NCBI RefSeq assembly: GCF_017744395.1
Contig: NZ_JAGIBI010000002.1
Coordinates: forward strand, 310,001-374,000
DNA from: Herbaspirillum sp.
GTDB lineage: Bacteria > Pseudomonadota > Gammaproteobacteria > Burkholderiales > Burkholderiaceae_D
Length of the DNA stretch: 64,000 nucleotides
Direction: 5' to 3'
In this document: piece after piece, positions 12,291 through 16,595 of the stretch
How the letters are laid out: each line of letters opens with the position of its first letter
How positions within the stretch are numbered: the stretch's first letter is position 1
Program-made: the position numbers and the translations under genes
Notes under the pieces: model-generated
What the model saw: only the letters and a program-made list of their open reading frames with translations
Told to the model about the DNA's origin: nothing
The model's database searches: none

Positions 12291-12776
12291 TCAGGTTTGT
12301 TCGAAGACGCCGGCGCTGCGGTTCTTGGCGACCTTGTCCCAGGCGAATACCCGGCCGTTCATGGCGACATGGACGCCGGGCGGCAGCACCTGCGCCACGC
12401 CGCAGGCGAAACCGAAGTTGAAAAGCGCGTCGGAGTTGGCGATTTCGTAGGGGATCATGGCACCGGTCAGGACGATGGTCTTGTCCAGTTGCGCCTGGCC
12501 CAGCACCTGGGCGGTCAGCTGCATGGTGTCGGTGCCGTGTACGATGACGATGGCGCCCTGGGGCGATTGCCGGCAGCTGGCGAGGATGCGCTGGCGGTCG
12601 GCGTCTTTCATTTCCAGCGAATCCAGCAGCGGCAATTCTTCCAGGGCCACTTCGGCGGTGATGCGCGCGCGGGCGATGACCTGCGGCAGGTGGCTGGCGC
12701 CGAAATCGAGCGTGCCGGCGATCTCGTCGTAATGCTTGTCGAAGGTGCCGCCGGTGGCGATGATGCGTAGGGTCAT
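12291..12776 (-). CDS. Asparaginase domain-containing protein, single N-terminal domain
   Basis: RIIATGGTFDKHYDE and AIVIVHGTDTMQLTAQVLGQ; TIVLTGAMIPYEIANSDA; only 161 aa. Confidence 0.85.
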   Translation of the reverse strand: MTLRIIATGGTFDKHYDEIAGTLDFGASHLPQVIARARITAEVALEELPLLDSLEMKDADRQRILASCRQSPQGAIVIVHGTDTMQLTAQVLGQAQLDKTIVLTGAMIPYEIANSDALFNFGFACGVAQVLPPGVHVAMNGRVFAWDKVAKNRSAGVFEQT

Positions 12777-12869
12777 GGTGGTCCTGTTGGAAGTAAAGAA
12801 GACGCCGCCCGTTATCTTACACGGACGGCGCCTCGCCCTTCCTCCAGGGACTTGCCGCAGCCCGGATTC

Positions 12870-15482
12870 TCATGCCGCCATGAGTTGCCTTTCTTCCGGC
12901 ATGGCCAGGTTGGCGGCATCCGCTTCCTGTACCGGCGGCAGCGCGATGATGCCGTCGACCACGTAGGCGAACAAGCGTTCGACCTCGATGGCCTGGATCA
13001 GCAGTTTGCCGCCATTGGCTTTGATCACTTGCGAAATCAGCATGGAGTCTCCCTGCATGGCCAGCGGCGTGTGGGTGATCTGCGACGGGCTGAACTGCGG
13101 CACGGCATGCAACTCGTCGACCAGCAAGCCGATGGTGTGCGCACCGTGGCGTACGATCATCACCTGGCTGCTGCTGGTCACCGCCGAGCGCGTGCCGCGG
13201 ATCAGGTGGCCGAGGTCGAATACCCAGATGAATTCCTTGTGCTGGTCGTCGCGGTTCAGGCCGATCATGCCGACCTGTCCGGGGCGGTTGCCCATCGAGG
13301 TCGGCAGTACGGAGGAGAACGGCACGGCTTCCATCACGTTGGCCGCCGGGAGGGCGAACAGGCTGTTGTCGGAAAAGAAGGTGGCGTATTCCAGGTCTTC
13401 CGGCGAGGTGGCGCCGCTCTCCAGCAGGAATTCGCTGGATGCGCTTTGCAGGCCGCCCTGGTTCACCGCGCCAAAGCACTGGAACACTACCGAGATCACA
13501 TCTTCCTTGTAGCCGTCGCTGACTTTGAATTCGCGATAGCCGTTGGAGGCGCTGCAAGCCACGATGGCGTATTGGCCGTCATGCAAGGTGACGCCGGAAC
13601 TGCACTGGCCATTGGCCAGCTGCAGCATGGCCAGGTCGATGTCCAGCGTGCCGCCTACCGGGCGGCTGTCGTCGGTGCTGGAGAGGATGCGCCCGTTGCG
13701 GCTGACGTAGAACGCGCTCATTTTTTCCTTGCCCGCCAGCCCTGCGCGCAGCATGTTGCGGAATTCCGGCGCGGCATCGAACACGATGCCGATGCCGCCC
13801 ACCACCTCGGCATCATTGTCCAGCGCCCGCACAGCCGCGTGGTAGATGTAAGTGTCCCGCCCGCCGTACAAGTCGCTGGGGCCGAAGGCGCTGACATGGT
13901 AGTGCTGCGGGCTGCGCAGGGAGCTCCCCTGCGCCAGCGTGGCATCATCGATGCTGCTGCCGACCACGCCACCTGGATCGTCGCCGGTGCTGGCGATGAT
14001 GCGGCCGTTGCGGTCATAGATGAACAGGCGGGTGTAGACCGTGTAGAGTCCGTTGATGTAGGCGAGGATCTCGGCCAACCTGGCCGTGGTGGCTTCGTCG
14101 ATCGCCGGCTGCGCCAGCGCCGCGCGCAGTTCCGGCGTGAGCGCCCACCAGCGGCAGTCGTCCGAGCGTTCGTAGAGGTTGCGGTCGAGCAGGTCGACCA
14201 GCAGGCTGGTCGTGAACTCCGCATCGCGCATGCTGGACGACAGCACGGTCTGGTACAGGTCGTGGATCGACTGCGCGAACAGCTCGTTGCTGCGGTTGCC
14301 GGTTTCGCTGATCTGGTCGAGGATGGTCTTGAGCTTGAGCATTTCGCCGCGCTGGCCGGCGGTCATCACCTGTCCGTTCCAGACGATGCGCTGGATGGTC
14401 TTGGCCGCCGTCATGATGTCGTGCAGCGGCGGGCAGAACGAATGCGCGTGCGACAGCAGCCCCTCCGCCAGCTCCGGCGACAGGCGCGAGAGCACGTCGC
14501 TGGCGATGCCGGTGAAGGCGACTTCGACCGGGACCATCACCTGGCCCTGCCAGCCGACGGGGCCCGGATAGCCCTGGTAGCCGTCGGAAGCGAAGGTGCG
14601 CACCAGGTATTCGCGGCCGCAGAACATCATCAGCCGCGGCTGGCCGCCGGTATTGACCGGGACCACGGTGCCTGGCGGGATCCACAGTTCGTCGGCGCTG
14701 GAGATGACGCGGTTGTCGCCGTCCAGCAGCAGCATGTTGGCGCGCGCTTCCGGATCGCGGTGGGCGGCGAAGATGCCGGCCATCTCTTCCTCGAAATGGA
14801 AGCACAGGCACAGCACGCCGATCACCGCACCGGTTTGGGGATGGTGCATGCGGCGCGAATAAATCAGTGCACGGTCCTTGGCCGGGCGCAGGTCGGTGGC
14901 GCGGAAGGTCTCGACGTAGGTATCGGACTCCAGCGTCTGCCTGATCAGCGGGTCGGTGCTGTGCTCCAGCGGCGTGGCCGGGTCGATCTGCACCAGCACA
15001 TTGCCTTCGGTGTCGGTCAGGATGATTTCGTCGTAGACGGTGTACTTGTTGCGGTATTCGCGCAGACGGTAGCGCGCCGCATCAACGGCATCGGCCGAGT
15101 CGGCGCCGCCCGCCACGAAGTTGCACAGCTCGCGGTCGGTCGCCAGGAAGCCGACGTCGGCGGTGCGCTCGAACAGGTTGCGTACCACGATGTCGATCAC
15201 GTATTGGGCCTTGGTGCCGATCCCGGCCAGCACGTTGCGTACCTTTTCCTCCACCAGGCTGTTCACCAGTTCGCGTTCCAGCCGGGAAAACCCCGAGCGG
15301 GTGGCGGCCATGGTCGGGAGGATGGTCTTGGCTTCCGTGGGGCAGTTCATCTTGGCCGAGGCCTCGATGACGCGCCACATCAGGTTAAGTTCCTGCAGCG
15401 ACTGTTCGCATTTGGCGACGTCGCGCATGTAGGGTAAAAAGGTTTCGGTGGGTACGGCTTCTGCTTGCGTGGCTTGTGGCAT
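12870..15482 (-). CDS. Large double-sensor (Cache-like) protein with C-terminal CheW domain
   Basis: Start MPQATQAEAVPTETF; two repeated sensor-like segments (VRNLFERTADVGFLATDREL / LDRNLYERSDDCRWWALTPEL); C-terminal CheW-like VMIVRHGAHTIGLLVDELHAVPQF. Confidence 0.8.
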   Translation of the reverse strand: MPQATQAEAVPTETFLPYMRDVAKCEQSLQELNLMWRVIEASAKMNCPTEAKTILPTMAATRSGFSRLERELVNSLVEEKVRNVLAGIGTKAQYVIDIVVRNLFERTADVGFLATDRELCNFVAGGADSADAVDAARYRLREYRNKYTVYDEIILTDTEGNVLVQIDPATPLEHSTDPLIRQTLESDTYVETFRATDLRPAKDRALIYSRRMHHPQTGAVIGVLCLCFHFEEEMAGIFAAHRDPEARANMLLLDGDNRVISSADELWIPPGTVVPVNTGGQPRLMMFCGREYLVRTFASDGYQGYPGPVGWQGQVMVPVEVAFTGIASDVLSRLSPELAEGLLSHAHSFCPPLHDIMTAAKTIQRIVWNGQVMTAGQRGEMLKLKTILDQISETGNRSNELFAQSIHDLYQTVLSSSMRDAEFTTSLLVDLLDRNLYERSDDCRWWALTPELRAALAQPAIDEATTARLAEILAYINGLYTVYTRLFIYDRNGRIIASTGDDPGGVVGSSIDDATLAQGSSLRSPQHYHVSAFGPSDLYGGRDTYIYHAAVRALDNDAEVVGGIGIVFDAAPEFRNMLRAGLAGKEKMSAFYVSRNGRILSSTDDSRPVGGTLDIDLAMLQLANGQCSSGVTLHDGQYAIVACSASNGYREFKVSDGYKEDVISVVFQCFGAVNQGGLQSASSEFLLESGATSPEDLEYATFFSDNSLFALPAANVMEAVPFSSVLPTSMGNRPGQVGMIGLNRDDQHKEFIWVFDLGHLIRGTRSAVTSSSQVMIVRHGAHTIGLLVDELHAVPQFSPSQITHTPLAMQGDSMLISQVIKANGGKLLIQAIEVERLFAYVVDGIIALPPVQEADAANLAMPEERQLMAA

Positions 15483-15830
15483 GTTGTTGTTCCCTCTGGT
15501 TGTGCCGCAAGACCAACGAACCGCGATGCTGGATCTTCCGACATCAGTTGTTGTTTGTTTTTGTGTTTTGCGCGGACCGAGCTGCAAGTTACGTGCCAAG
15601 GTTGGTCGCGAGATTTTTCTGTGTGGAAATTGTTTTATATCGTTTTGCGCGCTGCGGATTGTAGCCAGAACGGACGGTTATCTCTCGATGAAAAGCATGA
15701 AATCCGGCCTCCGTTCGCAGCTTTTCACATGAGAATTTTTAAATGATTCCGCGCGGCAATCCGGACTGATGCCGGCGGGAAATGCCGCGCTCCGGCCAGT
15801 CCGGCCAATGAGACTTATAATCGACCGGAT

Positions 15831-16595
15831 ATGAAACCACTGGCGCCCGGCACCGTCATCTTTCACCGTCATCGCGGTTATGGCGTGATCGTGCTCGTCA
15901 ATTTGCTGACGGGGTGGATTTCCGCCCGCTTCGGCAGCGAGGTGCGCACGCTCGACCTCAACCTGTCGTCCGACGAAGTGCAGCATGCCGACGGCACGCC
16001 GATCCTGTTCCGCCGCGCCCCGCCGGATCGCATGCCGCATGCGCGGCTCATGGCGATGGTGCGTGAACTGCACCGTACCGGTTACCAGCGGCTTTACCTC
16101 TATACCTGGCCCAAGCCTTCCGGGCTGCACTGGCGCTGGCATTTGTTCACCGGCCCGAGGCAATGGCTGGAACGGCCCTGGCGCGAAGGCTGGTACGGCT
16201 CGGGGGCCGACTACAACTTCAATCCGGTGCTGGGCTGGGGCGATACCCCCAGCGCGTCGCCGGAAGAACTGGCGCGGTTGCTGGCGCAGTTCGACCCGCA
16301 GGGGCTGGCGCAAGCGCTGGGCGAGGACGAAGAACACAGCAACTGGTTCGAGATGGTATGCGCCACGCTGCTGCCCGACTATGCGTTCAGCCTGGGCTGG
16401 CATGACAACGGTCGCATGCCGGAGCACCTGCCGGTGATCCCGATCCGCCGCAACGTGCCGGAATACGCGGGGCCGCCGCTGCCATGGCCGCCGGGCTGGC
16501 GGCATTTGTGGAGGGCTTCAGGCAAGTCGCCGGTATTGCCGTACGACCCGCCCGTGCGTACCACTTACCGTATTACTCCAGAACCTCAGGATTGA
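15831..16595 (+). CDS. Hypothetical protein
   Basis: 254 aa ORF, MKPLAPGTVIFHRHRGYGVIVLVNLLTGWISARFGSEVRTLDL; no family recognised. Confidence 0.7.
   Translation: MKPLAPGTVIFHRHRGYGVIVLVNLLTGWISARFGSEVRTLDLNLSSDEVQHADGTPILFRRAPPDRMPHARLMAMVRELHRTGYQRLYLYTWPKPSGLHWRWHLFTGPRQWLERPWREGWYGSGADYNFNPVLGWGDTPSASPEELARLLAQFDPQGLAQALGEDEEHSNWFEMVCATLLPDYAFSLGWHDNGRMPEHLPVIPIRRNVPEYAGPPLPWPPGWRHLWRASGKSPVLPYDPPVRTTYRITPEPQD

Follow-up and report, generated by a model that had tools for sequence, protein, structure and literature searches.

CheW, the adaptor domain through which receptors are connected to the chemotaxis machinery, is regarded as a passive coupler. In CheV, CheW is joined to a receiver domain. 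The CheWS protein of Treponema denticola, which combines CheW with a CheR-like SAM sensor, is anchored to arrays, and CheW-CZB proteins have been named in the same work (PMC10653840). Cache domains are mainly extracellular (78%), and only two small families are mostly intracellular (PMC4822843). CheV, CheW-CZB, and CheWS are the nearest in concept to the protein described here, and none of them carries Cache sensors. No paper on a Cache-CheW fusion was found in a literature search, although the bare architecture may stand in Fig. S10 of PMC10653840 among unstudied CheW architectures. The dCache-CheW family is thus apparently undescribed.

The protein of this locus resembles CheWS in that CheW is fused to a cytosolic sensor domain, while it differs in having two dCache copies as the sensor, no CheR-like domain in Pfam, and a CheW without the NLRG motif. 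Like CheV, it is a soluble multi-domain CheW adaptor, but it carries sensors instead of a receiver domain (no Response_reg match in Pfam). With the CheW-CZB proteins it has in common the combination of CheW and a sensory domain, and it contains no CZB domain. The dCache fold is that of the membrane chemoreceptors PctA, TlpA, and Mlp37 (Z 17-18). Unlike them, the protein has no transmembrane helices, is predicted to be cytosolic, lacks the MCP signalling domain, and ends in CheW. A separate 322-aa CheV-like gene, identified by eye, lies at C4:1026220 of the same genome.

Domain architecture of the 870-aa protein

The window, the whole stretch of 64,000 nucleotides of Herbaspirillum sp. DNA that was analysed, contains the gene on the minus strand with the following features.

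12870..15482, minus strand: coding sequence of 870 aa, starting with ATG at 15482 and reading hairpin-dCache, hairpin-dCache, CheW (ORF call, Pfam, AlphaFold model)
15491..15497, minus strand: Shine-Dalgarno sequence AGAGGGA, read from the sequence
15144..15449, minus strand: helical hairpin of module 1, residues 12-113 (helices 20-46 and 55-113; AlphaFold secondary structure), at the position of the MCP tip of relatives
15135..15182, minus strand: motif RNLFERTADVGFLATD, residues 101-116, invariant at 13 of its 16 columns across the alignment of 47 sequences
14508..15134, minus strand: dCache domain 1, residues 117-325 (Pfam dCache_1 at 136-268; fold match of 78-324 to the KinD sensor)
14145..14432, minus strand: helical hairpin of module 2, residues 351-446 (AlphaFold secondary structure), whose second helix aligns with the MCP-tip relatives
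14133..14186, minus strand: motif DRNLYERSDDCRWWALTP, residues 433-450, with 12 of 18 columns invariant
13467..14144, minus strand: dCache domain 2, residues 447-672 (fold matches of 405-672 to dCache structures, Z 17-19)
12948..13400, minus strand: CheW domain, residues 695-845 (Pfam PF01584; Z 18 to CheW 2ch4_W), NLRG motif absent

The sequence-only reading had described a protein of about 870 aa without a transmembrane helix or any HAMP, methyl-accepting or kinase domain, and this description held. The top 19-residue Kyte-Doolittle mean in the transmembrane scan was 1.45, so the protein is predicted to be soluble with no transmembrane segment. A few family relatives reached 1.8-2.0, where the peak was mostly a core Cache strand. 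CheW and dCache_1 were the only two families matched in Pfam, and no HAMP, kinase or MCP domain was detected at E 1. Searches with the 870-aa protein gave no match in PDB sequences at E 1 and none in NCBIfam. The AlphaFold model, which was built from 47 aligned sequences and had a mean pLDDT of 82, showed two repeats of a helical hairpin whose long second helix (residues 380-446 in module 2) leads into a dCache fold, and then CheW.

Two internal segments with a common motif had been noticed from the sequence. This motif is part of a full-length duplication, because the halves align over their whole length: residues 13-338 matched residues 347-685 in blastp with an E value of 2e-12, and the profile-profile comparison of the two halves gave 2e-18. 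The Cache-like segment suspected after each motif was assigned to the dCache subtype by the profile and AlphaFold check that had been proposed for the domain boundaries. PF02743 (dCache_1) matched in two stretches with an E value of 4e-11 and 43.3 bits, just below the cut-off of 45, which the relative L141 clears with 57.6 bits. In the structure comparison of the AlphaFold model, residues 78-324 matched the dCache of the sensor kinase KinD with Z 17, and the dCache fold, a long helix with two PAS-like subdomains, was present in both halves. Unlike typical Cache domains, these modules do not lie between two transmembrane helices. Pfam, the AlphaFold model, and the fold searches agree that the protein consists of two homologous halves, each with a hairpin and a dCache domain, followed by CheW.

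Six cysteines (residues 25, 47, 120, 225, 227, and 443) were at least 96% conserved in 47 close relatives, and no known metal or heme motif was found around them. The heme motif CXXCH, which would have fitted the redox input considered in the first reading, and the amino-acid-type dCache motif R-x-W-Y were both absent from the protein.

The CheW-like C-terminus of the earlier reading was confirmed as a CheW domain. PF01584 matched residues 699-838 with 47.4 bits against a curated cut-off of 23.5, and residues 695-843 of the model aligned with CheW 2ch4_W over 138 residues with Z 18.2 and an rmsd of 2.1. The NLRG motif, which is intact in both standalone CheW proteins of the same genome, is replaced by GLNRDDQH, a sequence that varies across the family, and CheW was the least conserved domain, with a mean column conservation of 0.61 compared to 0.67-0.84 in the hairpins and dCache domains. 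On these two grounds, it appears doubtful that the fused domain behaves as an ordinary ring CheW, and the altered domain may leave room for one-sided docking or competition. The protein could then inhibit array assembly or CheA under the control of a ligand, its altered CheW binding CheA P5 or receptors and displacing the normal CheW. The loss of NLRG alongside a kept V-x-E-A segment (VMEA, the counterpart of VQEI in CheW) is in line with such a competitor, and induction from a sigma-54 promoter, described below, fits a switch. However, those relatives that have a real MCP tip should become part of arrays, and we consider the competitor rather unlikely.

Single-module relatives with an MCP tip

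When the family profile was searched against all Pseudomonadota, proteins of roughly 265-440 aa matched the sensor module only. These relatives are soluble, have one module and no CheW, and carry a short MCP signalling tip ahead of the dCache domain. PF00015 (MCPsignal) matched the tip above the cut-off with E values of 1e-13 to 7e-24, mostly covering no more than the middle of the profile, whereas it was not detected in the 870-aa protein. The profile of the single-module proteins matched module 1 with an E value of 2e-25 and module 2 with 2e-31, and their motif RNLYER(T/S)(C/A)DVRWWATD is common to both RNLFERTADVGFLATD and DRNLYERSDDCRWWALTP. The two kinds of protein are therefore alike in a homologous module with this motif, a long helix in front of it, and solubility, and they differ in the single module, the real MCP tip, and the lack of CheW in L150-L163. 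In a tree whose drawing root is arbitrary, the single-module proteins formed one group, and modules 1 and 2 formed one each.

Of the 398 Pseudomonadota genomes searched, about 29 encode a protein with an MCP tip and dCache; these are mainly other Proteobacteria, with a few Burkholderia relatives. Those at L150-L163 (e.g., L155:1111-2190) come from several proteobacterial families and combine the short tip with a C-terminal dCache and no membrane helices in apparently orphan genes. Sigma-54-like sites were seen upstream of some such genes (L171, L172, L174, L179, and L181). Some copies, in Methylobacterium, Burkholderia stagnalis, and Caballeronia, lie on plasmids and bear the annotation methyl-accepting chemotaxis protein. 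As judged from their sequences, these proteins apparently represent a minimal cytosolic type of chemoreceptor.

The hairpins of the 870-aa protein are like MCP tips in position and topology, which suggests that they may descend from the tip. Sequence homology between them was not supported, since hhalign with the hairpins only gave an E value of about 0.1. The best argument that the output of the sensor module is the array comes from the comparison of the two families: the same sensor sits on two unrelated array-docking parts.

Distribution and gene neighbourhood

Among the matches listed in a scan of GTDB genomes, relatives of the dCache-CheW protein had 47-92% identity, the closest being that of H. 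chlorophenolicum (92%), and the hosts were Herbaspirillum, Noviherbaspirillum, Herminiimonas, Oxalicibacterium, Curvibacter, Methylotenera, others, and one Methylococcaceae MAG. In a profile search of 399 Burkholderiales genomes, 49 carried a family member; 47 of these matched the 849-position profile past position 800 and the other two matched over 10-723 and 57-610, and the remaining matches were short or covered the CheW region only. The family is conserved and is not an oddity of one genome. No paralogue was found in the own genome and no plasmid-borne copy of the family was found. Noviherbaspirillum malthae has two copies on different scaffolds (L033 and L082). A stop codon inside the G269 copy and the truncation of one MAG copy, L092, might be taken as signs that the gene is a decaying or inactive remnant. 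Dozens of intact orthologues, invariant motifs, and a conserved promoter make this extremely improbable.

CheA was present in 48 of the 49 genomes that carry a family member compared to 23 of 30 negatives (Fisher p 0.004); the exception, G075, which is 94% complete, has no CheA match. The own genome has four CheA matches, nine CheW matches including this gene, and about 42 MCP-tip matches. Every CheA and every other CheW match is on another contig and no MCP-tip match lies beside the gene, which is located away from any che operon, as the first reading had it. In four other loci, an MCP gene is adjacent to the family gene: 83-106 nt upstream in two MAGs and 488 nt upstream in a same-genus genome, and 137 nt downstream in the Methylococcaceae MAG (L089, L090, L131, and L096).

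A GAF-GGDEF-EAL gene lies directly upstream in five genomes, with a gap of -8 to +32 nt, and forms a compact operon with the family gene. These five genes are orthologues with 49-87% identity, and the copy at a contig end is without its start. In Methylotenera, a different gene, encoding PAS-GGDEF-EAL, is divergent from the family gene. Both arrangements would suit a protein whose main output is c-di-GMP rather than CheA, with CheW docking the sensor onto the GGDEF-EAL enzyme or another partner. But such a neighbour is missing beside most family genes, including the one of this locus, the own genome has no clear orthologue of the GAF-GGDEF-EAL enzyme (37-39% identity at best, over the GGDEF-EAL part), and the co-occurrence with CheA is nearly complete. 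We therefore regard a main output through c-di-GMP as distinctly unlikely.

Other neighbours were also observed. In Noviherbaspirillum and a Herbaspirillum-named strain (L033, L034, L037, L038, L041, and L082), an ORF of 166-183 aa with weak Rrf2 similarity overlaps the end of the family gene by 4 nt and is possibly a translationally coupled regulator. A divergent gene of 254 aa at 15831-16595 of the window, which matches no Pfam family, is an upstream neighbour conserved across Oxalobacteraceae. Downstream lie the following features.

12799..12834, minus strand: terminator-like hairpin of 14 pairs past the gene (consensus scan only)
12291..12776, minus strand: half-size asparaginase gene with the N-terminal domain only (Pfam PF00710), a conserved neighbour in the same place in 25 Oxalobacteraceae loci

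The asparaginase gene was considered as an operon partner and rejected: it lies 71-689 nt downstream across the 25 loci and here the terminator-like hairpin stands between the two genes. It is taken as a neighbour and is probably outside the system.

Promoter and predicted role in chemosensory arrays

A predicted promoter was located upstream of the start codon.

15583..15598, minus strand: sigma-54 (-24/-12) promoter TGGCACGTAACTTGCA, GG-N10-GC, an exact consensus that is conserved in the family

Allowing one mismatch, no other site matched in the window. As shuffled sequences gave a mean of 1.07 such matches, the argument for the promoter rests on position and conservation. A site of at least 10/12 was found upstream of 55 of 95 family genes compared to 52 of 1065 other genes in the same loci, and among the 22 divergent members kept after thinning, 13 had it (p 3e-12). 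In the upstream alignment of the Herbaspirillum group, conservation was confined to the promoter core, with no conserved enhancer site. No sigma-70 promoter was found for the gene. Family genes preceded by a GGDEF-EAL gene have no good site directly ahead; ahead of the GGDEF-EAL gene itself, a site of 10-11/12 was present in two of the five and one of only 9/12, a level reached by 19% of controls, in two more, while the fifth lies at a contig end. These results indicate that the gene is expressed from a predicted sigma-54 promoter conserved in the family. The own genome has 10 exact sigma-54 sites compared to none in the reversed control. Others of these are ahead of genes read by eye as flhA and methylisocitrate lyase. 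The former (G000:C4:958114-958129) is 207 nt upstream of the flhA-like gene in a genome that has FlhDC-like genes, and is a possible sigma-54 input into motility.

The co-occurrence with CheA, the MCP neighbours, and the relatives with an MCP tip point to chemosensory arrays, and solubility, two Cache modules, and a C-terminal CheW point to a sensor-adaptor. The protein is therefore probably a cytosolic sensor-adaptor of chemosensory arrays. This is close to the cytoplasmic two-sensor adaptor for a CheA array that had been proposed from the sequence; the two sensors and the solubility stood, a link to CheA is suggested by co-occurrence, and the CheW without NLRG weakens the docking part. Not part of that proposal were the hairpin helices, the full length of the duplication, the sigma-54 promoter, the operons with a GGDEF-EAL gene, and the relatives that carry an MCP tip. 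Ligand binding, array docking, and the direction of signalling are what we infer. The two tandem dCache modules on their long helices would respond to one or two small molecules or conditions inside the cell, the C-terminal CheW would attach the protein to the CheA/receptor array or to CheA P5, and movement of the helices driven by the ligand would alter CheA output. From the sigma-54 promoter, the protein would be made on demand, so that sensing is probably tied to the state of nutrition or metabolism; the co-transcribed GGDEF-EAL protein may link the output to c-di-GMP in several lineages. Counted against the sensor-adaptor are the low conservation of CheW and its missing NLRG, the lack of a recognisable MCP-tip sequence in the hairpins and of che neighbours in the own genome, G075 without CheA, and the failure to find a ligand motif.

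A wider proposal is slightly less likely than not. Proteins with the cytosolic dCache module may be a class of their own that feeds CheA arrays without a receptor, with two interchangeable connectors, namely the MCP tip in single-module proteins, mainly outside this class of bacteria with a few in Burkholderia relatives, or, after the duplication, CheW in Burkholderiales. Sigma-54 would add an internal metabolic input when it is needed, and some lineages would add a c-di-GMP enzyme along with it. If this is true, soluble sensors could address arrays with no membrane receptor involved, either through two cytosolic dCache domains on CheW or through the same module joined to an MCP tip. When the protein acts and what it controls could be approached directly through the sigma-54 promoter and the operons with GGDEF-EAL genes.
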